This document shows positions 39,144-54,895 of a stretch of 64,000 nt of DNA, in pieces. A program made the translations under genes and the position numbers. Positions within the stretch are counted from its first letter, which is position 1, and each line of letters begins with the position of its first letter. Origin of the DNA: Geoalkalibacter subterraneus (GTDB lineage: Bacteria; Desulfobacterota; Desulfuromonadia; Desulfuromonadales; Geoalkalibacteraceae); NCBI RefSeq assembly GCF_000827125.1, contig NZ_CP010311.1:3121001-3185000 (forward strand), read 5' to 3'. The notes below the pieces were generated by a model that searched no databases, was not told the DNA's origin, and was given only the letters and a program-made list of their open reading frames with translations.

Positions 39144-39163
39144 TATTGTTACATGTAACAATA
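39144..39163 (+). promoter_or_regulatory. 20-bp perfect palindrome before mazE
   Basis: TATTGTTACA/TGTAACAATA is a perfect 20-bp palindrome directly before the AAAGGAGG site. It is likely the operator where the antitoxin represses its own operon. Confidence 0.65.
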
Positions 39164-39175
39164 AAGGAGGACCAA

Positions 39176-39394
39176 ATGCCCTGTCATGCGAAAACATCCA
39201 AAGATCGAGTAAAAACCCACCGCCGCAGGATGCGTGCAGCCGGCCTCAAGGCTGTCCAAATCTGGGTTCCGGATACTCGTATTCCGGGATTTTCCGAAGA
39301 ATGCCGCCGGCAGTCACGAATCATCCGTAATGATCCCGAAGAGGTGCGTGAGTTGGAGCAGCTTGCTGAAATGGCCGACTGGAGCGAAGAATGA
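39176..39394 (+). CDS. mazE: MazE-type antitoxin (DUF3018)
   Basis: The 72-residue protein matches the DUF3018 antitoxin family: KDRVKTHRRRMRAAGLK, IWVPDTRIPGF. The ATG at 39176 has AAAGGAGG just upstream. It overlaps mazF by 4 bp. It should bind MazF and, through the palindrome upstream, its own promoter. Confidence 0.85.
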   Translation: MPCHAKTSKDRVKTHRRRMRAAGLKAVQIWVPDTRIPGFSEECRRQSRIIRNDPEEVRELEQLAEMADWSEE

Positions 39395-39717
39395 AACGAG
39401 GGGATCTCGTATTGGTTGCGCCGCCGGGGGCTTATGGCAAACCTCGACCGGCACTGATCATCCAATCTGATCTGTTTGCCGAACATCCCAGCGTCACGAT
39501 CTGCCTGCTGAGCAGTCATCTGCAGCAGACCCCCCTCTTCCGCTACCAGGTTGAACCCCACACTGAAAACGGCTTGTCTGTTCCATCACAAGTCCAGGTT
39601 GACAAGATCATGACTCTTCCGAGAACCAAATTGGGACAAAAAATCGGACGGCTTCAGGACCGCCAGCTTCAGGAGATCACAAGGTTGATTGCATTGTGGG
39701 TTGGCTTGGCGGGGTAA
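39391..39717 (+). CDS. mazF: MazF/PemK-type endoribonuclease toxin
   Basis: The 108-residue protein has the MazF pattern: MKRGDLVLVAPPGAYGKPRP at the start, SQVQVDKIMTLPR near residue 67 and LQEITRLIALWVGL at the end. It would cleave mRNA when freed from MazE. The pair is bordered on both sides by dispersed repeat copies. Confidence 0.88.
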   Translation: MKRGDLVLVAPPGAYGKPRPALIIQSDLFAEHPSVTICLLSSHLQQTPLFRYQVEPHTENGLSVPSQVQVDKIMTLPRTKLGQKIGRLQDRQLQEITRLIALWVGLAG

Positions 39718-40010
39718 GGAGTTTGTCGGACAGAAAGCTGGAAGAGCAAGGGCCTTGAACCGCCCGTTCGCTGCGCTCACTCGAGATCACGGAGGACACA
39801 GAGAAACCAGGGAGAAGTGAAGAAGGAAGCAAAAAAAAAATTGTCAAAAAGATTCTCTCTGTGGCTTTTCCTCTGTGCTCTCAGTGTACTCTGTGGTTCA
39901 AGCTTTTGAATTTAAAATTTCTCCGCGAACCCGGGACCTCAGCGGTGAAGATTTTCCCTTTTCCCTTTGATGCTTTATACTCGAATCACTACAATGCACT
40001 CAGCCCCAGC
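39718..40010 (+). repeat. Dispersed repeat copy 2 (after mazEF, before the transposon)
   Basis: A full copy runs from CCTTGAACCGCCCGTTCGC near 39752 to ACCTCAGCGGTGAAG near 39951. The same downstream tail seen before genes E, F and G (TTTGATGCTTTATACTCG) continues to 40010, where the transposon inserted. It shows that gene D originally had the same leader as its three tandem relatives. Confidence 0.8.
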
Positions 40011-40098
40011 TGTTGATTCCCATTTTATTCGGACTTACCTTTTCTGATTATTTGGCACCATTTGCGAGTTTGTCACCTTATTCGGACTTTTGGCGAAC

Positions 40099-40120
40099 GG
40101 GGGCAACTCGGGTTGCCCCC
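40099..40120. terminator. Hairpin at the left end of the transposon
   Basis: GGGGGCAAC and GTTGCCCCC form a 9-bp stem with a 4-nt loop just past the last gene on the minus strand. It may end that transcript; the T-run on the minus-strand side is weak. Confidence 0.5.
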
Positions 40121-40130
40121 GACGTTTAGA

Positions 40131-40310
40131 TTATTCGGGATCGTTGATGGCTCTTGACGGTCCTCTGGTTTCGACAAATTCGCCATACACCTGCTGTTCC
40201 TTATTGATCTTGCGCAGGCTGACCAGGAGCAGATCAAGAACGATTCGCCCCATCAGATCGGTCAGCTCATCGAGCTTTTGCTCCAGATCTTCCTCTTCAT
40301 AGATATTCAT
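40131..40310 (-). CDS. Small acidic protein at the end of the transposon operon
   Basis: A 59-residue reading frame starts at an ATG at 40310 behind GGAGAG and begins 14 bp after the ATPase gene. The N-terminus is very acidic and helical (MNIYEEEDLEQKLDELTDLM). I do not recognise it. Its ribosome site, operon place and coding texture suggest that it is real. It could be a small accessory or target-choice factor of the element. Confidence 0.55.
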   Translation of the reverse strand: MNIYEEEDLEQKLDELTDLMGRIVLDLLLVSLRKINKEQQVYGEFVETRGPSRAINDPE

Positions 40311-40324
40311 TGCGCTCTCCCTTT

Positions 40325-41134
40325 TTAGAACAGTTCTGTCGCCGCCCGGCGCACATGCTCGGCAGACACGACGGACTCTTGTGCTTTTGCCGCGGCAACC
40401 AGCGCACCTCTGGCGAGATGATTGGCTTTGCGGAACAGACCTCCAGAGCCCTGGTGAATAGCGGTAACCGCGGCGTCATCAAAGAGCATCTGCTTGACGC
40501 CGGCGATCTTTAGGTGATGGAGCAGGTACTCTTGCATGGTGTTCTGGTCGATGCCACTGAGGTGGCAGCGGGCAACCACGCGTGAGGCCAGGGGCTGGCT
40601 GTTACGATAGCTGAGGTTGTCGATCAAGTTGGCCTGTCCCGCCAGGATGATCGGCAGAAACGGTTTGGAATCCTGTTCAAACTGGGTGAGGGTGTGCAGT
40701 TCGGCAAACACCTCCAGTCGGAGCAAAGAAGCTTCATCGATCATCAGGGCCAGTTTCATCTTCTTGCCCAGGGTCAGATCCAGCACCTCCTGTTTGATCC
40801 GGCGGGTCATTTTGGCGCGGGACGCTCCGGCGTTTTCGACTCCCAGCTCAGCCAGAATCTGACGATAGAGTTCGAGAATGGAGCCGGAGGTGGCGGTGAC
40901 CGAGAGAACCCTGTACTCCGAAGGATGGAAATCCCCGATGACGTAGCGCAGCGCCGTGGATTTGCCGCTGCCGATTTCACCAGTGATCAGAGCGAGGGCT
41001 CCCAGGCTGATGGCATAGTGGATGCGGTCGCAGACGGCGGTGAGGGTTCTGGTCACCAGAATCTCCTGACGGGGGATATCGGCGGCAAAGGGCTCTTTGT
41101 GCAGCCCGAAACAATGGCGATAGTTCTCTGGCAT
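40325..41134 (-). CDS. TniB/ExeA-like AAA ATPase of the transposon
   Basis: The 269-residue protein has Walker A GEIGSGKST near residue 52, Walker B LALMIDEA near 130 and an arginine-rich later part. It resembles ExeA and the transposition regulators TniB/TnsC/MuB. It likely controls target choice and activates the DDE transposase. The ATG at 41134 shares one base with the transposase stop and has GGGAGG upstream; an earlier ATG at 41149 lies within the transposase gene. Confidence 0.85.
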   Translation of the reverse strand: MPENYRHCFGLHKEPFAADIPRQEILVTRTLTAVCDRIHYAISLGALALITGEIGSGKSTALRYVIGDFHPSEYRVLSVTATSGSILELYRQILAELGVENAGASRAKMTRRIKQEVLDLTLGKKMKLALMIDEASLLRLEVFAELHTLTQFEQDSKPFLPIILAGQANLIDNLSYRNSQPLASRVVARCHLSGIDQNTMQEYLLHHLKIAGVKQMLFDDAAVTAIHQGSGGLFRKANHLARGALVAAAKAQESVVSAEHVRRAATELF

Positions 41135-42450
41135 TACGCGTCCTCCCACAACTCGCCGCTTTGCGTGATGGCTTTCTCAACAGGAGTCCCTCCGTCAGAG
41201 CGGGCCTCCCCGACGAGTTCGACCTGGCCGTTTCGATCCCGCTTGACCCGACTGTTAACCTGTAGATCGATCGGTCGCAGGTTGCCGTAGGATTGTCCGG
41301 AGAAACGCACCTCCACCTGCTCGGGGCTTTGTTCGTGGTAGAGCAGTTCGACCCGTTTGCCGATCAGATCGACCGGCGCCTCGAACAGGCGCTTGTCGAG
41401 CACCACGGAGCGATCCTTGTTGACACGGCGGCGTGCTGTTTTGCGGAAGGAATCCGTCAGGTTGTGTGGCGCGGCGCGCAGACAGTGCATGTGGGCGGTA
41501 AAACGCTGTAAGGGACTTTGCCCGGTGGAGCTATGACGACGCTGATGATAAGTCTGTTCCAGCCACCGCTCGAACGCCCCATTGATCTGCTCCAGCGTCT
41601 GCCCGGTAAACCCCGGCAGGAACTGGGTGCGCACGGTGCGGAAGAAGCGTTCGATCTTGCCCTTGCCCTGGGGCTGATAGGGCTTGGCATGGATCAGGGC
41701 GATGCCCAGGGCGGCACAGGTATACTCCAGCTGACGGGAACGGAAGGCCGAGCCGTTGTCGACATAGAGTTTGCGCGGGATACCTCGTTTGCCTAGGGCA
41801 CTCTGGAAGGCTTCCATGAAGGGGGCCAGGGCTTCCGATGGATAAAACGCCGCATGAGGAATAAGCCGGGAATGATCATCGATGAAGGCGATCAGATAAC
41901 TCTTGCGCTGCTTGTTGCCAACCGTTACGTGCGGGCCGTGCATGACATCGGACTGCCACAGATCGTTGGGCAGTTCGGCTTCGAACTTGCGCCGGTCGGC
42001 GGCCGCGGCCGGTTGCTCTGTCATCAGATTGTGCTGATGTAAAAACCGGTACACCGTGCTCTGGCTGACAGACCGATCAGAGCTCACAAGCCAGCGTTCA
42101 TGCAGAATCCGGGTCAATTCCGGAACCGGCATTTTGGGCAACTGGCGACGCAGTTCCTGCAGTGCCAGGCCGGTCTCTTCATCGATCGCCCGCACACTCC
42201 CGCAATCGGTACGATCCTGTGGATACAGCGATTCAAGACGGCGGCCGTATCCCGTGTATCTCTGGATCCAGCGGGTAATGGTGCTACGGCTAATCCGAGT
42301 CCGTCCTGAATGCGGAATCTGCCACTTGCGAGCGCACTTCTCCCTGAGCAGGGCCTCCCGCTCACCTCGATCCAGTCGGGTGGCGCCGACAAAATCGGCA
42401 ATCACACCGTAGCGGAAGACCGCCACCGCTTGCTTCTGTTCTTCGGTCAT
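41134..42450 (-). CDS. DDE transposase/integrase (TniA-like)
   Basis: The 438-residue protein has a helix-turn-helix N-terminus (RISRSTITRWIQRY near 55) and an RNase-H-like DDE core: Asp in LWQSDVMHGP near 170, Asp in YVDNGSAFRS near 228, Glu in QGKGKIERFFRTVR near 264. A Mu-type C-terminal domain follows. It should cut and join the TGT...ACA ends. It is translated together with the downstream ATPase. Confidence 0.87.
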   Translation of the reverse strand: MTEEQKQAVAVFRYGVIADFVGATRLDRGEREALLREKCARKWQIPHSGRTRISRSTITRWIQRYTGYGRRLESLYPQDRTDCGSVRAIDEETGLALQELRRQLPKMPVPELTRILHERWLVSSDRSVSQSTVYRFLHQHNLMTEQPAAAADRRKFEAELPNDLWQSDVMHGPHVTVGNKQRKSYLIAFIDDHSRLIPHAAFYPSEALAPFMEAFQSALGKRGIPRKLYVDNGSAFRSRQLEYTCAALGIALIHAKPYQPQGKGKIERFFRTVRTQFLPGFTGQTLEQINGAFERWLEQTYHQRRHSSTGQSPLQRFTAHMHCLRAAPHNLTDSFRKTARRRVNKDRSVVLDKRLFEAPVDLIGKRVELLYHEQSPEQVEVRFSGQSYGNLRPIDLQVNSRVKRDRNGQVELVGEARSDGGTPVEKAITQSGELWEDA

Positions 42451-42553
42451 CGTTTCCTCCTTGATAAGGGTTTGCAGGCACCCTAAACCAAGAGGAAAAA
42501 CGGATCACCGGCCGACGTCACTGGGGTGGTCGCTGTGCAGTGACCTTCCCGGT

Positions 42554-43003
42554 TTAACTGACCCGGGCCACGGGAACCCGGCCCTGACGCAGCAGCGCAT
42601 CGAACCCCGCCAATAGCCCCCATCGCCAACGGTTGGTCAGATGCGCCTGAACCTGTCGGCGCAGATTGGCCAACCAATGCCGCAAGCGCGAGCGCGGCAG
42701 AGCCGAGGGCGGCCAGCGACCATGGGCCAGTCGCTCGTCGAGATGATCACGGATGCTCTCTCGGGAGGTGTGGATACGGGAAAAATGGGAGTCAGGTCGC
42801 AAAGTGATGACGCAACCGCACGCCGGGCAACGATAACACTTCATCAGCAGGGCTTGGCCATATCCCTCAAAATAGCGGGCGACGTAGCCATGTCCCCAGA
42901 CCCGCCAGTTGCTGCAACGCGGGCAGCTCTGCGGCCTTGGCCAGGGATAGCTCCGACCCATTTCAAGAATTTGCTTGAGTTCAACAATCACCGGCCATAT
43001 CAT
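42554..43003 (-). CDS. Zinc-ribbon protein of the transposon (DUF6431-like)
   Basis: The 149-residue protein has CPRCSNW near residue 27 and CYRCPACGCV near 57, giving a likely zinc ribbon, and a basic C-terminal half. It resembles the DUF6431 proteins that occur next to DDE/ExeA elements. Start at 43003 follows GGAG. It may bind the element ends or a target, which is an inference. It is the first gene of the transposon on the minus strand. Confidence 0.72.
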   Translation of the reverse strand: MIWPVIVELKQILEMGRSYPWPRPQSCPRCSNWRVWGHGYVARYFEGYGQALLMKCYRCPACGCVITLRPDSHFSRIHTSRESIRDHLDERLAHGRWPPSALPRSRLRHWLANLRRQVQAHLTNRWRWGLLAGFDALLRQGRVPVARVS

Positions 43004-43046
43004 TAAAGCTCCATGTAGGTCAGGGGTGTTGGCCCCGAAAGTAAAA

Positions 43047-43076
43047 GGGCGGAGAGTTCGTCAAAACTCTCCGCCC
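43047..43076 (-). terminator. Inner hairpin near the right end of the transposon
   Basis: GGGCGGAGAGTT and AACTCTCCGCCC form a 12-bp stem with a 6-nt loop. It is followed on the minus strand by TTTTAC. It lies upstream of the element genes, so it could stop transcription entering from outside. Confidence 0.55.
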
Positions 43077-43245
43077 GCTTTCTATCGACGGTGTCAAAAA
43101 AGAGCCTTCCGCAACAAGCTCATAGTCTCTGACAATCTCTACAAAATGGTCAACTCAAACTGACAATTTCATGCCCTCTCCAATTCATTTTTCGTGGCAA
43201 TTAACACCAGCTGACTCTCATGCACGCTCAACCGGAGAATTCAAA

Positions 43246-44790
43246 ATGACCCGACTGGCCAAACTTCCCATCGGCATTCAGACCTTCGCCAAGATTCGCG
43301 AAGATGATTATGCCTATGTCGACAAGACTCCTTTGGTGCACACCCTGATCGAAGAGGGGAATTACTATTTCCTTGCCCGCCCGCGCCGTTTCGGAAAGAG
43401 CCTGCTGATTTCCACCCTGCAGGCACTCTTCGAAGGGCGCAAGGAGCTTTTTACCGGGCTCGATATCGAGGACAAGTGGGACTGGGGCATCCAGTACCCG
43501 GTCATCAAGATCAGCTTCGGCGGCGTGGCGCGCAGCCTGGAGGATATGAAGCAGGATGTCGGAAACATCCTTGAGGAGAACCAGCGGCGATTGGGCCTTT
43601 CCTGCAAAAATCCGCAGGATATCGGCGGATGTTTCAAGCAGCTGATCTGGGAAGCCCAACAGAAATACGGTCAAAAAGTCGTCATCCTTGTGGACGAATA
43701 CGACAAGCTCATCGTCGACAACCTCGATCAGATCGAAGTCGCCAAACAGGGACGCGAGGTCCTCAAAGACCTCTACTCCATCATCAAGGACAGCGACGAA
43801 TACATCAGGTTCGCGTTTCTCACCGGGGTGAGCAAATTCAGCAAGGTCTCCGTTTTCAGTGGGCTCAACAACCTGGAGGATATCAGCCTTAATCCCGACT
43901 ATGCCACCTTGTGCGGCTATACTCAGCATGACCTGGAGACGGTGTTTGCCGAGCACCTGCGCGGCGCCGACATGGAGCGAGTGCGCCAGTGGTACAACGG
44001 CTACAACTTCCTGGGGGATCGGGTCTACAATCCTTTTGACATTCTGCTATTCATAAAAAACAATAAAGTTTTTGACAACTACTGGTTCGCCACCGGCACG
44101 CCGACTTTTCTGATCAAGCTGATCCGGAAGAATAATTATTATATTCCCAAGCTGGACAATTTGCGTGTCAGCAAAGGCTTGATCGACAGCTATGATATCG
44201 AGGACCTCGAACTTGAGCCGCTCCTTTTTCAAGCCGGCTATCTGACCATTCGCGCAGTCGAACAGATGCGACGGGGCGGGTATCAGTATGTACTGGACTT
44301 TCCCAACAAAGAGGTGCTGCTTTCTTTCACCGATATGATCATCAATTACCTGACCGATCATAAAGAGCAGAGAGGACGGTTTCAGGACGAACTCTACCTC
44401 ATGCTGGAAGAGGGTAATATCGAAGGATTCAGAGAAACCCTTGCCTCTCTGTTCGCCTCGATCCCCTACAACAACTACGTCAACAACACCATCGGCAGCT
44501 ATGAAGGATATTATGCCAGCGTCATCTACGCCTACCTGGCAAGCCTGGGGCTGGACTTGACCGCGGAGGATGTAACCAGCAAAGGGCGCATCGACCTGAC
44601 CGTGAAACTGGGAAACCGCATCTACATCATCGAATTCAAGGTCGACGGCGAGGGGCGCGCCCTGGAACAGATCAAGGCACGTGGCTATCATCACAAGTTT
44701 CAGGGAACGGGGAAGGATATCTACCTGATCGGTATCGATTTCGATTCGGAGCAACGCAATATTGCCGGGTTTGAGTGGGAGAAGGGTTGA
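43246..44790 (+). CDS. AAA-ATPase-like / PD-(D/E)XK nuclease protein, array copy D
   Basis: The 514-residue protein has the P-loop-like RPRRFGKSLL near residue 47, Walker B VVILVDEYDKLI near 150 and a C-terminal nuclease domain with GRIDLTVKLGN and IIEFKVDG. The start at 43246 follows CCGGAG and is conserved in all four tandem copies; the longer reading here runs into transposon DNA. Its variable section (about residues 340-440: AVEQMRRGGYQYVLDFPNK onward) differs from that of E, F and G. Confidence 0.87.
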   Translation: MTRLAKLPIGIQTFAKIREDDYAYVDKTPLVHTLIEEGNYYFLARPRRFGKSLLISTLQALFEGRKELFTGLDIEDKWDWGIQYPVIKISFGGVARSLEDMKQDVGNILEENQRRLGLSCKNPQDIGGCFKQLIWEAQQKYGQKVVILVDEYDKLIVDNLDQIEVAKQGREVLKDLYSIIKDSDEYIRFAFLTGVSKFSKVSVFSGLNNLEDISLNPDYATLCGYTQHDLETVFAEHLRGADMERVRQWYNGYNFLGDRVYNPFDILLFIKNNKVFDNYWFATGTPTFLIKLIRKNNYYIPKLDNLRVSKGLIDSYDIEDLELEPLLFQAGYLTIRAVEQMRRGGYQYVLDFPNKEVLLSFTDMIINYLTDHKEQRGRFQDELYLMLEEGNIEGFRETLASLFASIPYNNYVNNTIGSYEGYYASVIYAYLASLGLDLTAEDVTSKGRIDLTVKLGNRIYIIEFKVDGEGRALEQIKARGYHHKFQGTGKDIYLIGIDFDSEQRNIAGFEWEKG

Positions 44791-45069
44791 AGAAAAGCTT
44801 GAACCGCCCGTTCGCTGCACTCACTCGAAGACGCGGAGATCGCGGAGAAAGGCTTTAAGGGGTTTGGAGAAAAAAAGATTTCTCTGTGGTTTTACTCTGT
44901 GTTCTCAGTGTGCTCTGTGGTTCAGGATTTTGACTTTAAGATTACTCCGCGTACTCCGCGACCTCAGCGGTGAAGATTTTCCCTTTTCCCTTTGATGCTT
45001 TATACTCGAATCACTACAATGCACTCAGCCCCAGCCGACTCTCATGCACGCTCAACCGGAGAATTCAAA
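44791..45069 (+). repeat. Dispersed repeat copy 3, spacer between array genes D and E
   Basis: This spacer holds the palindromic repeat (GCTTGAACCGCCCGTTCGC to ACCTCAGCGGTGAAG). Arms CGCGGAGATCGCGGAG and CTCCGCGTACTCCGCG can pair as a long stem. The tail ends at the CCGGAG ribosome site of gene E. The spacer is nearly identical to those at 46609 and 48430. Confidence 0.9.
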
Positions 45070-46608
45070 ATGACCCGACTGGCCAAACTTCCCATCGGCA
45101 TTCAGACTTTCAGCGAGATCCGTCAGGAAGGGTATGCCTATGTCGACAAAACTCCTCTGATTCGAACCCTGATCGATGAGGGGAAATACTACTTTCTCGC
45201 CCGCCCGCGTCGTTTCGGAAAGAGCCTGCTGATTTCCACCCTGCAGGCACTCTTCGAAGGGCGCAAGGAGCTTTTTACCGGGCTCGATATCGAGGACAAG
45301 TGGGACTGGCAAACCCGATACCCGGTCATCAAGATCAGCTTCGGCGGCGTGGCGCGCAGCCTGGAGGATATGAAGCAGGATGTCGGAAACATCCTTGAGG
45401 AGAACCAGCGGCGATTGGGCCTTTCCTGCAAAAATCCGCAGGATATCGGCGGATGTTTCAAGCAGCTGATCTGGGAAGCCCAACAGAAATACGGTCAAAA
45501 AGTCGTCATCCTTGTGGACGAATACGACAAGCTCATCGTCGACAACCTCGACCAGATCGAAGTCGCCAAACAGGGACGCGAGGTCCTCAAAGACCTCTAC
45601 TCCATCATCAAGGACAGCGACGAATACATCAGGTTCGCGTTTCTCACCGGGGTGAGCAAATTCAGCAAGGTCTCTGTTTTCAGTGGGCTCAACAACCTGG
45701 AGGATATCAGCCTTAATCCCGACTATGCCACCTTGTGCGGCTATACTCAGCATGACCTGGAGACGGTGTTTGCAGAGCACCTGCGCGGCGCCGACATGGA
45801 GCGAGTGCGCCAGTGGTACAACGGCTACAACTTCCTGGGGGATCGGGTCTACAACCCTTTTGACATTCTGCTATTCATAAAAAACAATAAAGTTTTTGAC
45901 AACTACTGGTTTGCCACCGGCACGCCGACTTTTCTGATCAAGCTGATCCGGAAGAATAATTATTATATTCCCAAGCTGGACAATTTGCGTGTCAGCAAAG
46001 GCTTGATCGACAGCTATGATATCGAGGACATTGAGCTGGAACCGATTTTGTTTCAGTCCGGATATCTGAGTATCAACCACGTTGAGCAGACCGATTTCGG
46101 CACCGAGTACAGCCTGAAATTTCCCAACCGCGAAGTCGCCATCTCTTTTAACGACGTGATCGTTCGCTACCTGACCGGTTCCGGCAATAACCTGCCGACA
46201 AAAAAGGAACTGTTGACCAGTCTGAAGCAGGGCGATCTGCAGCAGTTTGAAAATACGCTGACCGGCGTGTTCGCCTCAATCCCCTACACCAACTACGTTA
46301 ACAACACCATCGGCAGCTATGAAGGCTACTACGCCAGCGTGGTCTATGCCTACCTGGCAAGCCTGGGGCTGGATCTGACCGCGGAGGATGTAACCAGCAA
46401 AGGGCGAATCGACCTGACCGTGAAACTGGAAAACCGCATCTACATCATTGAATTCAAGGTCGACGGCGAGGGGCGCGCCCTGGAGCAGATCAAAGCGCGC
46501 GGCTATCATCACAAGTTTCAGGGAACGGGGAAGGATATCTACCTGATCGGTATCGATTTCGATTCGGAGCAACGCAATATTGCCGGGTTTGAGTGGGAGA
46601 AGGGTTGA
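45070..46608 (+). CDS. AAA-ATPase-like / PD-(D/E)XK nuclease protein, array copy E
   Basis: This 512-residue protein shares the core of copy D almost exactly from about residue 75 to 335, but has its own N-terminus (FSEIRQEGYAYVDKTPLIRT, WDWQTRYP) and variable section (NHVEQTDFGTEYSLKFPNRE, SGNNLPTKKELL). The nuclease end reads KLENRIYIIEFKVDG. Motifs as in D. The swap of blocks between otherwise identical genes marks gene conversion. Confidence 0.87.
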   Translation: MTRLAKLPIGIQTFSEIRQEGYAYVDKTPLIRTLIDEGKYYFLARPRRFGKSLLISTLQALFEGRKELFTGLDIEDKWDWQTRYPVIKISFGGVARSLEDMKQDVGNILEENQRRLGLSCKNPQDIGGCFKQLIWEAQQKYGQKVVILVDEYDKLIVDNLDQIEVAKQGREVLKDLYSIIKDSDEYIRFAFLTGVSKFSKVSVFSGLNNLEDISLNPDYATLCGYTQHDLETVFAEHLRGADMERVRQWYNGYNFLGDRVYNPFDILLFIKNNKVFDNYWFATGTPTFLIKLIRKNNYYIPKLDNLRVSKGLIDSYDIEDIELEPILFQSGYLSINHVEQTDFGTEYSLKFPNREVAISFNDVIVRYLTGSGNNLPTKKELLTSLKQGDLQQFENTLTGVFASIPYTNYVNNTIGSYEGYYASVVYAYLASLGLDLTAEDVTSKGRIDLTVKLENRIYIIEFKVDGEGRALEQIKARGYHHKFQGTGKDIYLIGIDFDSEQRNIAGFEWEKG

Positions 46609-46887
46609 AGAAAAGCTTGAACCGCCCGTTCGCTGCACTCACTCGAAGACGCGGAGATCGCGGAGAAAGGCTTTAAGGGGTTTGGAGAAAAAAAGATTTC
46701 TCTGTGGTTTTACTCTGTGTTCTCAGTGTGCTCTGTGGTTCAGGATTTTGACTTTAAGATTACTCCGCGTACTCCGCGACCTCAGCGGTGAAGATTTTCT
46801 CTTTTCCCTTTGATGCTTTATACTCGAATCACTACAATGAAATCAGCCCCAGCCGACTCTCATACGCGCTCAACCGGAGGATTTAAA
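46609..46887 (+). repeat. Dispersed repeat copy 4, spacer between array genes E and F
   Basis: Nearly identical to the spacer at 44791-45069, differing in a few bases close to the gene F start (AATGAAATCAGC for AATGCACTCAGC, and CCGGAGG for CCGGAG). Confidence 0.9.
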
Positions 46888-48429
46888 ATGACCCGACTGG
46901 CCAAACTTCCCATCGGCATTCAGACCTTCGCCAAGATTCGCGAAGATGATTATGCCTATGTCGACAAGACTCCTTTGGTGCACACCCTGATCGAAGAGGG
47001 GAATTACTATTTCCTTGCCCGCCCGCGCCGTTTCGGAAAGAGCCTGCTGATTTCCACCCTGCAGGCACTCTTCGAAGGGCGCAAGGAGCTTTTTACCGGG
47101 CTCGATATCGAGGACAAGTGGGACTGGGGCATCCAGTACCCGGTCATCAAGATCAGCTTCGGCGGCGTGGCGCGCAGCCTGGAGGATATGAAGCAGGATG
47201 TCGGAAACATCCTTGAGGAGAACCAGCGGCGATTGGGCCTTTCCTGCAAAAATCCGCAGGATATCGGCGGATGTTTCAAGCAGCTGATCTGGGAAGCCCA
47301 ACAGAAATACGGTCAAAAAGTCGTCATCCTTGTGGACGAATACGACAAGCTCATCGTCGACAACCTCGACCAGATCGAAGTCGCCAAACAGGGGCGCGAG
47401 GTCCTCAAAGACCTCTACTCCATCATCAAGGACAGCGACGAATACATCAAGTTCGCGTTTCTCACCGGGGTGAGCAAATTCAGCAAGGTCTCCGTTTTCA
47501 GTGGGCTCAACAACCTCAAGGACATCAGCCTCGACAGCCGCTACGCCACTCTGTGCGGCTACACCCAACATGACCTGGAAACGGTCTTTGCCGAGCATCT
47601 ACGCGGCGCCGACATGGAGCGAGTGCGCCAGTGGTACAACGGCTACAACTTCCTGGGGGATCGGGTCTACAATCCTTTCGACATCCTGCTGTTTATCGAT
47701 AGTGGACAGATTTTCAAAAACTACTGGTTCACCACCGGCACTCCGACCTTTCTGGTCAAGCTGATCCAGAAGGGCAACTACTATATCCCGCGTCTAAATA
47801 GTTTACGCGTGTCGGAAAGCCTGATCGACAGCTACAACATCGAGGACATCGAGCTTGAACCTCTTCTGTTCCAAGCCGGCTATCTGACCATCGGGCGGCA
47901 GGAAAACGTCGGCGCAGTCACCATGTACATCCTGAACTTCCCAAACCTTGAAACCCGTTACTCCTTCAATGATTTCCTGCTCAGTCACCTGACCGGCCAG
48001 GACGCGGAAAAAGCGGAATTTCAGACCCAGATTTACTCCGCTCTGTCCGGTGCTGATCTGCCGGCATTCGAGCGAGCTCTGACCTCCCTGTTCGCCTCAA
48101 TCCCCTACACCAACTATGTCAACAACACCATCGGCAGCTATGAAGGCTACTACGCCAGCGTCATCTACGCCTATCTGGCAAGTCTGGGGCTGGACTTGAC
48201 CGCGGAGGATGTGACCAGCAAAGGCCGCATCGATCTAACCATTAAGTTGGAAAACAGCATCTACATCATCGAATTCAAGGTCGACGGCGAGGGGCGCGCC
48301 CTGGAGCAGATCAAAGCGCGCGGCTATCATCACAAGTTTCAGGGAACGGGGAAGGATATCTACCTGATCGGCATCGATTTCGATTCGGAGCAACGCAATA
48401 TTGCCGGGTTTGAGTGGGAGAAGGGTTGA
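46888..48429 (+). CDS. AAA-ATPase-like / PD-(D/E)XK nuclease protein, array copy F
   Basis: The 513-residue protein shares its N-terminal half with D and G, then has a block of its own (NNLKDISLDSRYATLC, FIDSGQIFKNYWFTTGTPTFL, RLNSLRVSESLIDSYNI). Its variable section (GRQENVGAVTMYILNFPNLE) resembles copies B and C in island 3 more than D or E. The nuclease end reads KLENSIYIIEFKVDG. The link to B and C shows that blocks are exchanged between the two islands or come from a common pool. Confidence 0.87.
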   Translation: MTRLAKLPIGIQTFAKIREDDYAYVDKTPLVHTLIEEGNYYFLARPRRFGKSLLISTLQALFEGRKELFTGLDIEDKWDWGIQYPVIKISFGGVARSLEDMKQDVGNILEENQRRLGLSCKNPQDIGGCFKQLIWEAQQKYGQKVVILVDEYDKLIVDNLDQIEVAKQGREVLKDLYSIIKDSDEYIKFAFLTGVSKFSKVSVFSGLNNLKDISLDSRYATLCGYTQHDLETVFAEHLRGADMERVRQWYNGYNFLGDRVYNPFDILLFIDSGQIFKNYWFTTGTPTFLVKLIQKGNYYIPRLNSLRVSESLIDSYNIEDIELEPLLFQAGYLTIGRQENVGAVTMYILNFPNLETRYSFNDFLLSHLTGQDAEKAEFQTQIYSALSGADLPAFERALTSLFASIPYTNYVNNTIGSYEGYYASVIYAYLASLGLDLTAEDVTSKGRIDLTIKLENSIYIIEFKVDGEGRALEQIKARGYHHKFQGTGKDIYLIGIDFDSEQRNIAGFEWEKG

Positions 48430-48708
48430 AGAAAAGCTTGAACCGCCCGTTCGCTGCACTCACTCGAAGACGCGGAGATCGCGGAGAAAGGCTTTAAGGG
48501 GTTTGGAGAAAAAAAGATTTCTCTGTGGTTTTACTCTGTGTTCTCAGTGTGCTCTGTGGTTCAGGATTTTGACTTTAAGATTACTCCGCGTACTCCGCGA
48601 CCTCAGCGGTGAAGATTTTCTCTTTTCCCTTTGATGCTTTATACTCGAATCACTACAATGAAATCAGCCCCAGCCGACTCTCATACGCGCTCAACCGGAG
48701 GATTTAAA
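48430..48708 (+). repeat. Dispersed repeat copy 5, spacer between array genes F and G
   Basis: Nearly identical to the spacer at 46609-46887 over its whole 279 bp, including the CCGGAGG start region. Confidence 0.9.
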
Positions 48709-50247
48709 ATGACCCGACTGGCCAAACTTCCCATCGGCATCCAGACCTTCGCCAAGATTCGCGAAGATGATTATGCCTATGTCGACAAGACTCCTTTGGT
48801 GCACACCCTGATCGAAGAGGGGAATTACTATTTCCTTGCCCGCCCGCGCCGTTTCGGAAAGAGCCTGCTGATTTCCACCCTGCAGGCACTCTTCGAAGGG
48901 CGCAAGGAGCTTTTTACCGGGCTCGATATCGAGGACAAGTGGGACTGGGGCATCCAGTACCCGGTCATCAAGATCAGCTTCGGCGGCGTGGCGCGCAGCC
49001 TGGAGGATATGAAGCAGGATGTCGGAAACATCCTTGAGGAGAACCAGCGGCGATTGGGCCTTTCCTGCAAAAATCCGCAGGATATCGGCGGATGTTTCAA
49101 GCAGCTGATCTGGGAAGCCCAACAGAAATACGGTCAAAAAGTCGTCATCCTTGTGGACGAATACGACAAGCTCATCGTCGACAACCTCGACCAGATCGAA
49201 GTCGCCAAACAGGGGCGCGAGGTCCTCAAAGACCTCTACTCCATCATCAAGGACAGCGACGAATACATCAAGTTCGCGTTTCTCACCGGGGTGAGCAAAT
49301 TCAGCAAGGTCTCCGTTTTCAGTGGGCTCAACAACCTCAAGGACATCAGCCTCGACAGCCGCTACGCCACTCTGTGCGGCTACACCCAGCATGACCTGGA
49401 AACGGTGTTTGCAGAGCACCTGCGCGGCGCCGACATGGAGCGAGTGCGCCAGTGGTACAACGGCTATAACTTTCTGGGGGATCGAGTCTACAATCCTTTC
49501 GATATTCTGCTTTTTATCGACAGCGGGCAGATTTTCGACAACTACTGGTTCGCCACCGGCACGCCGACTTTTCTGATCAAGCTGATCCGGAAGAATAATT
49601 ATTATATTCCCAAGCTGGACAATTTGCGTGTCAGCAAAGGCTTGATCGACAGCTATGATATCGAGGACATTGAGCTGGAACCGATTTTGTTTCAGTCCGG
49701 ATATCTGAGTATCAACCACGTTGAGCAGACCGATTTCGGCACCGAGTACAGCCTGAAATTTCCCAACCGCGAAGTCGCCATCTCTTTTAACGACGTGATC
49801 GTTCGCTACCTGACCGGTTCCGGCAATAACCTGCCGACAAAAAAGGAACTGTTGACCAGTCTGAAGCAGGGCGATCTGCAGCAGTTTGAAAATACGCTGA
49901 CCGGCGTGTTCGCCTCAATCCCCTACACCAACTACGTTAACAATACCATCGGCAGCTATGAAGGCTACTACGCCAGCGTGGTCTATGCCTACCTGGCAAG
50001 TCTGGGGCTGGACTTGACCGCGGAGGATGTAACCAGCAAAGGGCGCATCGACCTGACCGTGAAACTGGGAAACCGCATCTACATCATCGAATTCAAGGTT
50101 GATGGCGAGGGGCGCGCCCTGGAGCAGATCAAAGCGCGTGGCTACCATCACAAGTTTCAGGGAACGGGGAAGGATATTTACCTGATCGGTATCGATTTCG
50201 ATTCGGAGCAACGCAATATTGCCGGGTTTGAGTGGGAGAAGGGTTGA
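48709..50247 (+). CDS. AAA-ATPase-like / PD-(D/E)XK nuclease protein, array copy G (mosaic)
   Basis: The 512-residue protein reads as a mosaic. It is almost identical to F up to about residue 230 (NNLKDISLDSRYATLC), switches to E-like DNA near 49405, keeps an F-like SGQIF, then follows E through the variable section (NHVEQTDFGTEYSLKF). It ends with the D-like KLGNRIYIIEFKVDG. Catalytic motifs are intact, so the product is likely functional. Confidence 0.87.
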   Translation: MTRLAKLPIGIQTFAKIREDDYAYVDKTPLVHTLIEEGNYYFLARPRRFGKSLLISTLQALFEGRKELFTGLDIEDKWDWGIQYPVIKISFGGVARSLEDMKQDVGNILEENQRRLGLSCKNPQDIGGCFKQLIWEAQQKYGQKVVILVDEYDKLIVDNLDQIEVAKQGREVLKDLYSIIKDSDEYIKFAFLTGVSKFSKVSVFSGLNNLKDISLDSRYATLCGYTQHDLETVFAEHLRGADMERVRQWYNGYNFLGDRVYNPFDILLFIDSGQIFDNYWFATGTPTFLIKLIRKNNYYIPKLDNLRVSKGLIDSYDIEDIELEPILFQSGYLSINHVEQTDFGTEYSLKFPNREVAISFNDVIVRYLTGSGNNLPTKKELLTSLKQGDLQQFENTLTGVFASIPYTNYVNNTIGSYEGYYASVVYAYLASLGLDLTAEDVTSKGRIDLTVKLGNRIYIIEFKVDGEGRALEQIKARGYHHKFQGTGKDIYLIGIDFDSEQRNIAGFEWEKG

Positions 50248-50439
50248 AGAAAAGCTTGAACCGCCCGTTCGCTGCGCTCACTCGAAGACGCGGAGATCGC
50301 GGAGAAAGGCTTTAAGGAGTTTGGAGAAAAAAAGATTTCTCTGTGGTTTTACTCTGTGTTCTTAGTGCGCTCTGTGGTTCAAGCTTTTGACTTTAAACTT
50401 CCTACGCGCACTCCGCGACCTCAGCGGTGAATGCTTTTC
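50248..50439 (+). repeat. Dispersed repeat copy 6 (after array, before phd-relE)
   Basis: This copy matches the array spacers through GCGGTGAA at about 50431 and then changes into the relE gene end, which runs on the opposite strand. It has a few extra changes (AAGCTTTTGACTTTAAAC, CGCGCACTCCGCG). Confidence 0.85.
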
Positions 50440-50721
50440 TCAGGAACGATACACTTCATCGTGACTGCCGACATGCACCGGGATAATTTCTTTGTCCTGG
50501 ATGATCAATTCAAGGGTGATACGGTAGCTGATATTAATCGAGACAGAATGCAGGCTGCTCAACGCACCCTGCAGCCGGTGCATTCGAAGTGAGGGATGAA
50601 AAGGATCAAGCTCCAATAGCTTCAGTGTCTTTTCGTATTGAGGGAGAAGTTCTGGGTGCTTGCGCAGAAATTTTGCGGCCCGCTTGTTATACGCGGGGGT
50701 ATAGAGGATGCGGAAATTCAT
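50440..50721 (-). CDS. RelE/YafQ-type toxin
   Basis: The 93-residue protein has the RelE/ParE fold pattern: RILYTPAYNKRAAKFLRKHP, then LRMHRLQGAL near residue 46 and ISYRITLELI near 64, with VHVGSHDEVY at the end. It resembles YafQ-like ribosome-dependent mRNA nucleases. It overlaps the antitoxin gene by 4 bp. Confidence 0.85.
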   Translation of the reverse strand: MNFRILYTPAYNKRAAKFLRKHPELLPQYEKTLKLLELDPFHPSLRMHRLQGALSSLHSVSINISYRITLELIIQDKEIIPVHVGSHDEVYRS

Positions 50722-50978
50722 GGATCCATTTTCCGCAGTCGGTCGATATGCTCTTCAACACTTTCGGTAACGGCTTGACCTCCGTCAACTTCGCGACGAG
50801 CCTCGTAAAGCGCGGCTTCCAATTCGCAAACACGCAGGCGATTGTAAGCCTCCATATCCATTACGACATAACGCTCTTTGCCGCGCACGGAAATAATGGC
50901 CTCGTCGCCCTCTGCCAAAGCCGATTCAATGGACGCGACACCTCTTGTCTTCAACTCGTTCGCAGTAATCGCTTTCAT
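50718..50978 (-). CDS. Phd/YefM-type antitoxin
   Basis: The 86-residue protein matches Phd/YefM antitoxins: ITANELKTRGVASIESAL at the start and AIISVRGKERYVVMDMEAY near residue 27. The C-terminal part should wrap the RelE partner. A TAGTA/TACTA pair 10 bp apart at 51016-51035 upstream is a likely operator. Confidence 0.85.
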   Translation of the reverse strand: MKAITANELKTRGVASIESALAEGDEAIISVRGKERYVVMDMEAYNRLRVCELEAALYEARREVDGGQAVTESVEEHIDRLRKMDP

Positions 50979-51089
50979 CGCAGCACTCCCGATCCGCAGC
51001 TTTTCGCTCTATTGTTAGTACGATTAAGAATACTATTAAAAAGCAAATTGAGCAAGGGCGGGGACAATAATCTGCAAGGCAAATTTGTT

Positions 51090-51917
51090 CTAATTGCATC
51101 CAGCAGCCGAGCGCCTGCTCCTTGTATTATCGGTCATTCGCAGGTAGTCGAAGACGGCGCGGGGGTTCATGGCGAGCATCCTCATTTTCTGCGCAACGCT
51201 GCCGACGCTTTTTGATTTAATCAGACCGACCGCGAAGCGTCGGAGCCGGGTGATGTTTTCCGGCCCATGGCCGGTGCGTATCCGGCTTCGGTCTTCGTCG
51301 TAATTCCAGTCAATGATGTAGTGGCAGCTGTTTTCTATGCACCAGTGGTTGCGATTAGTCTTGAGGATGCGCTGGGCGTCGGCCTGCTGCGGTGTGTGGC
51401 TGGTGATTCCGTAAACGGTTTCGGTTGAGACTTTCCCGCTCTTTTTGTTGACCCTTTCGCGTTCGACCATGAAAGCCTGACCGACGTGAGGAAAGTCGAG
51501 ATAGTCGTTGAGCTCGGCGGTGACCCAGATCCTCCGCGTCTCGATCCGGCCATGGTCGGAGTCGACGGTGACAGCGTGAGGTTCTTGGCGGCCATGAAAA
51601 TACAGGGTGAGGTCTTCGAGAAGCCGGGGCTGATTGCCTTTGACGGTGAAATGGTAATGGGCCTGCCTGTCTTCGACCAGGTAGCGGGCCAATCGGCGTT
51701 GCGTCAATAGGGCGTCGGCGCTGATGGTCTTGCCTTCGATGCTGATCGCCTCGAGCAAGGGGATGGCCATTTTGATTTCGTTCGTTTGCTTGACCTCGTC
51801 GCTGCCATCGTCTATCGGCAGGAGGCCGACTTTTTTTGGGTGTGGCAGGTTTTGGTCTCGTGGCCGATCGCGCTCATGATATGCGTCTTGCGGCCTTGCT
51901 CGTCGGTGGCGTTGCAC
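51090..51917 (-). CDS. ISAs1 transposase, C-terminal frame
   Basis: This frame encodes the second half of the DDE_Tnp_ISAs1 domain: KMAIPLLEAISIEGKTISADAL, YHFTVKGNQ, WCIENSCHYIIDW near the end, with the catalytic Glu expected near NHWCIEN. It lies in the -1 frame relative to 51812-52879. The real join is at the A7 run near 51831-51837, so the stated start at 51917 is only the open limit. Confidence 0.75.
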   Translation of the reverse strand: MQRHRRARPQDAYHERDRPRDQNLPHPKKVGLLPIDDGSDEVKQTNEIKMAIPLLEAISIEGKTISADALLTQRRLARYLVEDRQAHYHFTVKGNQPRLLEDLTLYFHGRQEPHAVTVDSDHGRIETRRIWVTAELNDYLDFPHVGQAFMVERERVNKKSGKVSTETVYGITSHTPQQADAQRILKTNRNHWCIENSCHYIIDWNYDEDRSRIRTGHGPENITRLRRFAVGLIKSKSVGSVAQKMRMLAMNPRAVFDYLRMTDNTRSRRSAAGCN

Positions 51918-52879
51918 ATGGTCTTGCCGTCAATGGCGAGGCTTTCATCCGCGCCTGCGTAAGCCTCGTTCCAACGTTGAAAGCTGCGGTCGAGATGATC
52001 CGGATCGACCCTGATGAGGATATCGCGGATGATGTATTCGCTCGGGACAAGGTACTGCCCTTGTTTTTTACGGCATCCGAAGCGCTCGCGCGCCTTGGGG
52101 CCAAGACTTTTGGCCCAATCGGAAATCGCCTTGTACCCGCGCATCCCGCAAAGCGTCGCCCCGGCGGCAATGGCCAAAACGGTGGACAGCCGGTGGCGTT
52201 TCCCTGCGGCGCGGCGCGGGTCGGGGATGTCGGTGAAAAACTCTGGCAAGGATCGCATTTGATTGGCTGTCAACAACATTTTCACGTCTCCTGGACAATA
52301 GGGCGCCCCAAGCAGGGGGCGGGACAAGAGCGATTGGGCATTGGACTGCAGCGCACGAACAAACACCATCTTCGGGGACTGTGCGAGGTTGCTATAACCT
52401 TGACGGGTTCGGCGAAATCCCTTGGTCTGACCCAGGCATAGCCAATTGGCCGCCTTGTAAACCGTGCCTTGATAGCGCTGCGGATCGACAAAGGTCTCCA
52501 TCAGCACAAGCGGATGGCCAAAGCGCTCCAGCCAGTCGCGCTGGATTCTTTGTTCGCACAGCGCCAAGACGCGCGAGCCCAGATTGGGCAAATGCCACTG
52601 CGGCAGGATCAAAAAACGGCTATTGTTGGCAACCAGCTTCAAGCGGTCATATTGGCGCCGATGATCCCAGCCAATCCACTGGTCGCGAACGGCGCACTTC
52701 AAGGCCGCAGCGGAAAAGCTCAGCAAAGCGACCCACTGCTGGCGCAATATGGCAACGTACCAGAGGGTTTCGCCGATCTTGGGCAGATCTCCCAGATAAT
52801 GATGCGCTTGCATTGTCTCCCGATATCGGTCCTCCTCGAGGGCTGAAACGGGTCGTACATGGATTTCTTTCAGATTCAC
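51812..52879 (-). CDS. DUF4338 (DruA-like) domain fused to ISAs1 transposase N-terminal part
   Basis: From a GTG at 52879 the frame encodes a DUF4338-like domain (about residues 1-200: YRETMQAHHYLGDLP, VALLSFSAAALKC, RFLILPQWHLPNLGSRVLAL). It is joined to an ISAs1 N-terminal domain (LPEFFTDIPDPRRAAGKRHRLS) and the first catalytic Asp in LAIDGKTM. The frame ends shortly after an A_AAA_AAG heptamer at 51831-51838. A -1 shift there continues into the rest of the transposase. DUF4338 is the domain of DruA in the Druantia defence system. A longer N-terminus to 53074 would run outside the element. Confidence 0.75.
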   Translation of the reverse strand: MNLKEIHVRPVSALEEDRYRETMQAHHYLGDLPKIGETLWYVAILRQQWVALLSFSAAALKCAVRDQWIGWDHRRQYDRLKLVANNSRFLILPQWHLPNLGSRVLALCEQRIQRDWLERFGHPLVLMETFVDPQRYQGTVYKAANWLCLGQTKGFRRTRQGYSNLAQSPKMVFVRALQSNAQSLLSRPLLGAPYCPGDVKMLLTANQMRSLPEFFTDIPDPRRAAGKRHRLSTVLAIAAGATLCGMRGYKAISDWAKSLGPKARERFGCRKKQGQYLVPSEYIIRDILIRVDPDHLDRSFQRWNEAYAGADESLAIDGKTMCNATDEQGRKTHIMSAIGHETKTCHTQKKSASCR

Positions 52880-53002
52880 GACAGGGTCTCCAAGGGCAAA
52901 GGACGAACCCTTTATACCCCATCGGAGAACAAATGACCAGAACTTTATGCTGGGGCAAGGCTTAGAGCGTGTTCCCGGGAGGGAACAAATTCGCCCTGCA
53001 AT

Positions 53003-53063
53003 AATCTGAACCGCCCGTTCGCTGCACTCACTCGAGAGCGCGGAGGACGCGGAGAACGCTTTT
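53003..53063 (+). repeat. Dispersed repeat, left arm only (copy 7)
   Basis: CTGAACCGCCCGTTCGCTGC to GCGGAGGACGCGGAGAACG is the left arm of the repeat. The matching right arm is found at 53648-53739, after the RHH-parE pair, so the pair looks inserted inside one repeat. Confidence 0.75.
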
Positions 53064-53124
53064 CCTCGAAACACCCTCCAATCCGTATTACAATGTATTC
53101 AACACCCCTCTCAGGAGAAAATCC

Positions 53125-53373
53125 ATGCCCAAAACCGCGACCCTTACCGTGCGTGTCAAGCCAGACACTAAAGAGCGCTTGGATGCGCTGACGCGTGTGA
53201 CACACCGCTCCAGGTCCTTCATGATTGAAGAGGCACTGGAACAATATCTCGAAATCAACGAATGGCAGACCCAGGGGATCGAAGCGGCACTTGCCGAGGC
53301 CGACAGCCCTGACGCTCAATGGATTGATCACGAGGCGGTTATGGCGGAAAGGCAGAAGAAAGGTGCGCATTAG
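53125..53373 (+). CDS. Ribbon-helix-helix antitoxin
   Basis: The 82-residue protein has a ribbon-helix-helix start (TATLTVRVKPDTKERLDALT, then RSRSFMIEEALEQYLE) like CopG/RelB-type antitoxins. CAGGAG precedes the ATG. It overlaps the toxin gene by 11 bp and should bind both the toxin and its own promoter. Confidence 0.85.
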   Translation: MPKTATLTVRVKPDTKERLDALTRVTHRSRSFMIEEALEQYLEINEWQTQGIEAALAEADSPDAQWIDHEAVMAERQKKGAH

Positions 53374-53647
53374 ATGGCTGCGGCGGGCGGTGCGTGATCT
53401 TGATGCAGCAGAGGAGTTTATCGCGCAGGATAATCCGGAAGCCGCGGCGAAGATCGCGTTGACGATCGTCAAGGCAGTATCCCAGCTAAAAGATCAGCCT
53501 GGAGCTGGTCGAGCCGGCCGAGTACCCGGCACGCGTGAACTCGTCATTGCCGAGACACCCTACATCGTTCCGTATCGCGTCAAGAACGATGTCGTTGAAA
53601 TTTTGCGGGTGTATCATTCCTCGCGTAAATGGCCGGATGCTTTTTGA
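53363..53647 (+). CDS. RelE/ParE-type toxin
   Basis: From a GTG at 53363 the frame gives 94 residues with the ParE/RelE layout: IRWLRRAVRDLDAAEEFIA, GRAGRVPGTRELVIAETPYI, YRVKNDVVEILRVYHSSRKW. The GTG start overlaps the antitoxin end; the longer reading from 53225 is an out-of-frame extension inside the antitoxin gene. Confidence 0.85.
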   Translation: MRIRWLRRAVRDLDAAEEFIAQDNPEAAAKIALTIVKAVSQLKDQPGAGRAGRVPGTRELVIAETPYIVPYRVKNDVVEILRVYHSSRKWPDAF

Positions 53648-53739
53648 TTTCCCTCCGTGTCCTCAGTGCTCTCCGTGGTTCAATCCTTTGATTTTAAGAT
53701 TCCTCGGCGCACTCCGCGACCTCAGCGGTGAATGGCTCT
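53648..53739 (+). repeat. Dispersed repeat, right arm only (copy 8)
   Basis: CTCTCCGTGGTTCAATCC to ACCTCAGCGGTGAATGG is the right arm of the repeat and ends at the PilZ gene stop. It closes the module island. Confidence 0.75.
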
Positions 53740-54426
53740 TTACCGCCCGACCACATCCACCTTGGTGCGCAGCTGGCGCCGCTGTTCGGAGAAGCAGTAG
53801 GAGATGACCACTTCCTGATCTTCGTCTTCGATGTCGGTGAAATGGAGAGCCACGCCCCAGTGCTTTTCGCCGCGGGGGGTGCTGCGTACCACGCGGCCGA
53901 CGCAGCGCACAACAGTGCGGGGGGGGCCGGGAACGGAGAGTTCGAGTCCGAGCTGCTGACCGATGGCGGGATTGAATTCGGCGACAAAGAATATTCCACC
54001 GCCGCTGAGATTCACTCTTTCGGAAGGGGATTGGAGAATTTCAGGGCGTCCATTATCGTCTTCGACATGACGCCAGTAGCGCACCGGGAGATCGACGTCG
54101 ATGCGAAAGTGTTCGCGCTTCTGCGGATGCTCGTAGGCCTCAGTGACCTCAAGCACCAGTTGGCGGTCATTGACGATCTGCTTGACCACGCCATGCAGAG
54201 CCACCGTTGGGCCGGCAACCTGGATGGAGAGCTTGAATTCACCGTCCTGATCGATATTGTTGGGGAGAACATCGGGAAGAAAGTTGACTTTGATCAGCGT
54301 CGCGGCAACCGGCATCGCCACCCCTTCAAAGGGGAGTGAGCCCGTCCCTTTGGTGGGGAGATAGACCTTGATCGATTTTTTCCCCCCCAAGTGTTGGAGG
54401 GCGTCCTGGGGAGAAATGCGTTCCAT
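53740..54426 (-). CDS. PilZ-domain c-di-GMP protein (YcgR-like)
   Basis: The 228-residue protein has an N-terminal YcgR-like domain and a C-terminal PilZ domain. The c-di-GMP motifs are KREHFRID near residue 103 (RxxxR) and NLSGGG near 139 ([D/N]xSxxG). It probably slows the flagellar motor when c-di-GMP is high. It is the last gene of the fliD-fliS cluster. Confidence 0.85.
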   Translation of the reverse strand: MERISPQDALQHLGGKKSIKVYLPTKGTGSLPFEGVAMPVAATLIKVNFLPDVLPNNIDQDGEFKLSIQVAGPTVALHGVVKQIVNDRQLVLEVTEAYEHPQKREHFRIDVDLPVRYWRHVEDDNGRPEILQSPSERVNLSGGGIFFVAEFNPAIGQQLGLELSVPGPPRTVVRCVGRVVRSTPRGEKHWGVALHFTDIEDEDQEVVISYCFSEQRRQLRTKVDVVGR

Positions 54427-54448
54427 GAGAAAATTCGGAAAAAAGTGT

Positions 54449-54895
54449 TTAGAAAATGCTTGTCAGAATCGACCCCTTGCCCTGATCCTGCCCCCGATAA
54501 CCGCTCATGGCTGCTTTGCCGATACGGGCCTGGGTAAGCTCTTCGGAAATGACCGACATCATGCCACGAATTTTTTCGGATAGCAACTGGTTGTGTTCCC
54601 GTACCCGCGCCATAATCCGTGTGCGTCTCTCCAGGACCGCCTCAAGGGTTGCATCTTTGCAATTTAGAGCACAGACGCCCCGTTCCACATCGGCATCGAT
54701 CTCCGCGGCCTGCTGCTGGCGTTGGCGCAACTCTTCAGCAAAGAGGCTGATCTGCTCGGAATCCACTTTGCCGAGAGTTTCACCAAAGCGCTCCAGTGCG
54801 TCAAGAATGTCGCGGTACTGGCTGATGGAAAGATCAACGGTTTTGTAAACTTCATCCAGGGAGACGTTTTTATCGAAACTGCACTCACCCGACAT
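54449..54895 (-). CDS. FliT-like flagellar chaperone (putative)
   Basis: This 148-residue helical protein lies directly after fliS, its ATG sharing one base with the fliS stop. The central coiled region (residues about 20-110) suits a FlgN/FliT-type export chaperone, but the sequence is not clearly assignable. Position after fliD-fliS favours a FliT-like role in FliD export. The N-terminus has a Cys, and the C-terminus is Gly-rich. Confidence 0.6.
   Translation of the reverse strand: MSGECSFDKNVSLDEVYKTVDLSISQYRDILDALERFGETLGKVDSEQISLFAEELRQRQQQAAEIDADVERGVCALNCKDATLEAVLERRTRIMARVREHNQLLSEKIRGMMSVISEELTQARIGKAAMSGYRGQDQGKGSILTSIF

Follow-up and report, generated by a model that had tools for sequence, protein, structure and literature searches.

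A parDE-type operon between the arms of a composite palindromic repeat in Geoalkalibacter subterraneus

The window analyzed here is a stretch of 64,000 nucleotides (C1:3121001-3185000) of the Geoalkalibacter subterraneus genome, which comprises 3.72 Mb in two contigs. It contains a repeat region that is bordered on the left by a large reading frame (36304-38784) and on the right by genes that begin with a PilZ gene at 53740 and that we take to be flagellar. At the right end of this region, genes for an RHH antitoxin and for a ParE toxin are located between a left and a right repeat arm. The features referred to below are, in window positions:

38958-39110, plus strand, related repeat copy lacking the outer right half-arm (repeat search and alignment)
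39756-39953, plus strand, uninterrupted composite copy with a longer centre (repeat search, genome search and alignment)
44800-44976, plus strand, uninterrupted composite copy (repeat search and genome search)
46618-46794, plus strand, uninterrupted composite copy, query for the genome search (repeat search and genome search)
48439-48615, plus strand, uninterrupted composite copy (repeat search and genome search)
50257-50433, plus strand, nearest uninterrupted composite copy (repeat search, genome search and alignment)
50440-50978, minus strand, Phd/YefM-like antitoxin and RelE/YafQ-like toxin frames, each under the curated cut-offs of the matched families
51075-52998, minus strand, ISAs1-family insertion sequence with a DruA-like reading frame and a 10-bp direct repeat, CAATAATCTG, on both sides
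53007-53063, plus strand, left arm of the split composite repeat (57 nt), including the CCGTTCGCTGCACTCACTCGA segment
53066-53094, plus strand, promoter-like site TCGAAA - 17 - TACAAT (consensus match only, 9/12)
53125-53373, plus strand, RHH_1 (PF01402) antitoxin gene, 82 aa
53363-53647, plus strand, ParE_toxin (PF05016) gene with a GTG start, 94 aa
53645-53734, plus strand, right arm (about 90 nt), with an inner half-arm ending near 53682 and an outer half-arm at about 53691-53732
53740-54426, minus strand, PilZ-domain gene, 5 nt from the right arm, anchor for the empty-site test

The RHH protein matched PF01402 with 38.7 bits (cut-off 20.5) and an NCBIfam RelB-like model below its cut-off. 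The ParE protein matched PF05016 with 69.6 bits (cut-off 23). Its gene overlaps the RHH gene by 11 nt, and its stop codon touches the right arm. A ParE-family toxin is thus preceded by an overlapping gene for a small DNA-binding antitoxin, the arrangement of a parDE-like type II toxin-antitoxin (TA) system. As in known parDE-type II operons the antitoxin gene comes first and the two genes overlap, and both proteins match two chains of one solved complex (PDB 6xrw, chain B for RHH and chain A for ParE). The present pair differs from those operons in being located between the arms of a palindromic repeat and in encoding a ParE protein that also exceeds the cut-off of the NCBIfam RelE/StbE model TIGR02385.

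Two bases separate the left arm from the promoter-like site. Two such sites were found in 901 bases against 0.3 expected, the second being inside the RHH gene; in the relative L155, ATTACAATGTAT is present at the position of the first. From the predicted -35 element to the toxin stop codon, the segment between the arms is close to a minimal transcription unit. This compact fit, the most conspicuous feature of the locus, could be due either to chance or to selection for compactness.

A repeat search of the window identified the composite repeat, uninterrupted, at five sites (39756, 44800, 46618, 48439, and 50257). It is approximately 180-200 nt long, and every copy in the window is on the plus strand. 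Each copy consists of a left arm carrying the extra CCGTTCGCTGCACTCACTCGA segment, a short centre, and an inner and an outer right half-arm. For the outer right half-arm (TCACCGCTGAGG...) matches were returned from this 15-kb region only, and the split copy is thereby linked to the copies around it. No Rfam match at gathering score was obtained in window 38500-54500.

Other genes are found among these copies. A MazE-like/PemK pair (PF11455, PF02452) is flanked by two repeat copies in window 38958-39953. Four tandem AAA-ATPase_like/PDDEXK_9 genes with a spacing of 1818-1824 nt occupy window 43171-50247, each followed by a repeat copy; their PF09820/PF08011 assignment comes from one of the four genes. 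Three further homologues are located at window 19.5-25.4 kb. Upstream of the first AAA-ATPase_like gene lies an element of three frames (40015-43200), encoding an AAA_22 ATPase, an rve transposase whose score just reaches the IS481 cut-off, and a small protein without a Pfam match.

One uninterrupted copy (window 46618-46800) was used as query in a search of the own genome. Query positions 1-50 matched the left arm at 53007-53056 (90% identity, E 1.2e-12), and positions 88-175 matched the right arm at 53645-53732 (82% identity, E 2.5e-18). Both arms agree with the uninterrupted copies in strand, order, and register, and the 37-nt centre (query 51-87) is replaced by 588 nt. The repeat search of the window gave a similar picture, with 53007-53063 being 86% identical to the copy at 44800 and 53640-53734 being 82% identical to 50339-50433. 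When the two arms were joined and aligned with the uninterrupted copies they formed one collinear repeat from end to end, although gaps in the alignment fix the inner boundaries of the split copy only within a few bases. With its left arm and its inner and outer right half-arms collinear, the split copy belongs to the same composite repeat as the copies at 39756-50433. The joined arms (111 nt) were predicted to fold with -46.3 kcal/mol and three intact copies (129-149 nt) with -46.3, -46.3, and -50.2 kcal/mol, values obtained without a shuffled control.

The original prediction placed the RHH-parE pair inside one dispersed repeat whose full copies have a short centre. The two arms are indeed the two ends of a composite repeat with five uninterrupted copies in the window, and a 37-nt centre is replaced here by 588 nt, which supports a module within a repeat. 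The module was correctly placed between two flanking arms, whereas the extent given for the right arm, 53648-53739, was off by a few bases, position 53740 already being the end of the pilZ gene. Likewise, the uninterrupted copies turned out to be composites of a left arm and two right half-arms and not one simple palindrome. Since the arms are complementary parts of one copy, the five local copies are uninterrupted, and arms are rare around relatives of the ParE gene (see below), the best-supported reading is that the pair lies within one repeat and not between two. We put at about 70% the probability that a parDE-type operon was inserted into the centre of a resident copy of the local composite repeat, splitting its arms, and that the ISAs1-family element came later.

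The main competing history has the pair originally flanked by two complete repeats, with the right part of the left repeat and the left part of the right repeat lost afterwards. The order repeat-TA-repeat does exist at 39 kb, with the mazEF-like pair at 38958-39953, repeat copies alternate with the AAA-ATPase_like genes, and arms without a partner occur in the genome, e.g., at 1210833 and 3228008. That genes elsewhere in the window lie between full copies speaks against insertion here, and another history may therefore apply. The two losses would, however, have to end at the same 37-nt centre without overlapping. If break points are taken as uniform along the repeat, simple arithmetic gives a probability of about 0.2 for this coincidence, which makes it a weak objection. 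We regard two degraded repeats as an unlikely origin of the locus.

The order of events on the left side can be read from the insertion sequence. The right copy of its direct repeat CAATAATCTG (52999-53008) extends over the two bases with which the left arm starts. Because the 10-bp duplication takes in these two bases, the ISAs1-family element postdates the split copy's left arm. Before its arrival the RelE/YefM-like pair at 50440-50978 was located between the copy at 50257 and the left arm of the split copy.

The repeat is not confined to this locus. At two or fewer mismatches, 48 of 136 genomes in the order contained the arm pattern and none (0/136) contained its reversed control, and first-order Markov shuffles of 117 loci gave no arm match of at least 10 bits. 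The repeat is thus a member of a family of intergenic palindromes of the order. With a shorter arm pattern and 3 mismatches, 62 matches in the own genome compared with 15 for the reversed control, so that matches at 3 mismatches are mostly noise. Elsewhere in the genome the family is represented by simple palindromes of about 80-180 nt; the reading frames flanking one of them are presumably hypD and hypE, and those flanking another pgk and tpi. A family palindrome is located between the same two genes, again taken to be hypD and hypE, in G. subterraneus and in the genomes G003 and G004 (L098, L141, and L143), and for this reason some copies may have been kept in place across genera.

A profile search of the examined loci of the own genome gave 17 convergent arm pairs with inner gaps of 16-72 nt. 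The left arm of the split copy fell below the cut-off of this profile and was picked up by the other searches. Two more short pairs, one arm of which bears an insert, were found at 547 kb and 746 kb. Genes were found inside a convergent arm pair in one case out of 20, the split copy only. We also asked how well the arms of one element match each other. Among 17 elements the own arm ranked first in one, and the two arms of an element were no closer to each other than to arms from elsewhere; in the split copy, the ranks were 3/17 for the own right arm and 14/17 for the own left arm. Arm-to-arm matching consequently has no power to identify one palindrome, and it speaks neither for nor against the pair lying in a single repeat.

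A CopG-RelE-like pair, read by eye, is located at C1:3228009 (L106 1500-2200), where a left arm is present and a right arm absent; it also adjoins a second repeat phrase (AAGTCACCAAGAATGGCACTAAGACACCAAG). Close relatives of its neighbour gene were found only in G010 (78%) and G008 (61%). Neither provided a usable empty site for this pair, G010 having no arm and G008 having one about 1.1 kb away.

The short copies have the inverted arms, short length, and high copy number of miniature inverted-repeat elements (MITEs). The arms could be regarded as terminal inverted repeats of a mobile element carrying the gene pair, with the short copies as deletion forms. The copies are palindromic, dispersed, and mostly short, and gene-bearing forms exist both here and, in comparable form, in the genome G051 (see below). 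Relatives of the ParE gene, by contrast, rarely have arms beside them, and inspection by eye of nine short copies and of the copies in the window showed no flanking duplication. A MITE-like origin appears improbable.

The evidence on arms near relatives came from loci returned with the searches, a subset of the matches, with the PilZ, ParE, and RelE loci of the own window left out. None of the 29 ParE loci had an arm of at least 13 bits. One (L172) had an arm above 10 bits, located upstream and in the other orientation. The corresponding numbers for arms of at least 13 bits were 1/29 for PilZ control loci, 2/29 for RelE loci, one of these being the G051 array, and 4/30 for AAA-ATPase_like loci, all four in the own window (0/24 in other genomes). 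Arms were about equally rare beside TA or AAA-ATPase_like genes and beside the PilZ controls, and no general association was found in these loci. Given how rarely relatives of ParE have arms, entry of the pair into a resident repeat is probable. Outside the own genome, the best ParE match (70%) was found in G150, from another family of the class, while matches in the own family did not exceed 53%, which fits horizontal acquisition. As the repeat copy has local sisters, insertion into a resident copy is the simplest history, and the insertion would be later than the repeat.

In relatives, the pilZ side was examined for an uninterrupted repeat. PilZ orthologues (69-71%) were found in four genomes of the family (G001, G003, G004, and G005). 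In these four, no arm of at least 13 bits is located beside pilZ, and other genes are found there. G002 gave no PilZ match at the cut-off used. The genomes returned by the PilZ and arm-pattern searches included none of the same genus, and the only named relative, from a scan of named genomes, was contig L239 of a Geoalkalibacter MAG (PilZ 70%), in which the sole arm-profile match scores below zero. No relative examined had an orthologous empty site with an uninterrupted copy. This, together with no target duplication being visible at the inner boundaries of the split copy, counts against insertion, as do the arms without a partner and the lack of enrichment of TA relatives beside arms in the loci returned. 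The analysis did not demonstrate a capture step at this locus: the inner boundaries bear no visible target duplication, no enzyme was linked to the repeat, and the sampled TA and AAA-ATPase_like relatives are not generally located beside arms.

A comparable arrangement was found in G051, a genome from another family of the same order, where locus L133 contains a tandem array of a related repeat. Four uninterrupted units (u1, u3, u4, and u5) are 290 nt long and 93-98% alike, and u2 is a 280-nt variant. Two further units, TA1 and TA2, are 1092 nt each and 98.4% alike. Compared with u1, their left end corresponds to nt 1-90 and their right end to nt 125-248 and 256-289, and between these parts lie two reading frames, a RelE-type pair. 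The toxin frame is 68% identical to the frame at 50440 in the window, and the second frame (90 aa) looked similar to the antitoxin frame of the window when compared by eye. Measured against u2, the match extends further on the left (146 nt) and less far on the right (57 nt), and the gene-bearing units contain additional nested repeats, so that the exact insertion point in L133 is uncertain. As at our locus, TA genes lie between repeat parts with intact copies adjacent, whereas the TA family is a different one, the repeats form a tandem array with more nested repeats, and two gene-bearing copies are 98.4% alike. In G051 intact and interrupted copies are found side by side, though at another place and with another pair. 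By analogy, this makes gene insertion between arms more credible as a recurrent event. A broader proposal, in which the centres of palindromic repeats in the order are recurrent landing sites for TA operons, and arm-bounded units of repeat and operon, without an integrase of their own, are amplified in tandem as passive cassettes and so give rise to accessory arrays, we consider unlikely.

Twenty stretches were scanned for arms, and reading frames were annotated in 12. Gene modules enclosed by the arms of a single repeat were seen among those stretches only in L133, as judged from arm positions without a formal count. Like L133, L144 (G. subterraneus C1:1732000-1742000) contains a tandem array of 250-290-nt units made up of several palindromic or repeated phrases. 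In L142, a presumed GxxExxY-type frame is located beside arms.

Alternation of repeats with small genes, with all copies in one orientation, is also what an integron-like cassette array would look like, the repeats being its recombination sites. The genome does encode one integron integrase over the cut-off, at C1:1466258: out of 18 TIGR02249 matches, one exceeded the cut-off (503 bits against 265), and 14 control genomes had matches, none over the cut-off. This integrase, however, is located about 1.7 Mb from the window and not adjacent to the array. Neither RYYYAAC nor GTTRRRY, as expected of attC sites, was present in any of 8 segments (six full copies and the two arms), and the same repeat family also occurs as single short copies beside other genes. 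An integron-like array is therefore highly improbable. In locus L122, the frequency of GTTRRRY did not exceed chance (6 observed, 4.6 expected). Several weaker TIGR02249 matches are located within 100 kb of the integrase (L252, C1:1466258-1467196).

Under the preferred reading, insertion into a resident copy, a compact parDE-type operon would have entered the centre of a composite palindromic copy, leaving a left and a right arm, and an ISAs1-family element would later have inserted at the left arm's outer margin. The route may have been illegitimate or homology-assisted recombination of acquired DNA, and the loop of the repeat may have offered a harmless place for foreign DNA. If the pair works as a normal type II system, as we presume, the RHH protein would bind ParE and repress the shared promoter.

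What was found is a neat variation on two known themes, the parDE operon and the intergenic palindrome. Intergenic "multicopy nucleotide sequences", some of them palindromic, have been described from Geobacter and Pelobacter genomes (PMC2700814, PMC2996986, PMC3543383). By description they resemble the present repeat in forming families, in being partly palindromic, and in being intergenic, but a gene located within a repeat copy is not mentioned in the portions of those descriptions consulted. Small mobile repeats, including ERIC and other bacterial MITEs, have been reviewed (PMC2229807; PMC10969869). They are similar in being 100-235 nt long, forming stem-loops, and being mostly intergenic (PMC2229807, in the part consulted). 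Here, in contrast, no terminal duplication was seen, and a copy is split by a two-gene operon. The parts consulted of all five sources (PMC2700814, PMC2996986, PMC3543383, PMC2229807, PMC10969869) describe no operon inside a repeat copy. One string of the repeat family occurs once in the literature searched, in PMC3090145, and the family may already have been described.

Anatomically, the locus is a clean example of a selfish gene pair housed between the two arms of a small palindrome, and another family provides an analogue. Should such nesting prove recurrent, static intergenic repeats would help to account for the way in which small accessory genes come to occupy harmless sites in operon-dense chromosomes. 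Outside the repeat region, a long run of the 7-nt unit TGTCAGT was observed at window 15479-15772.
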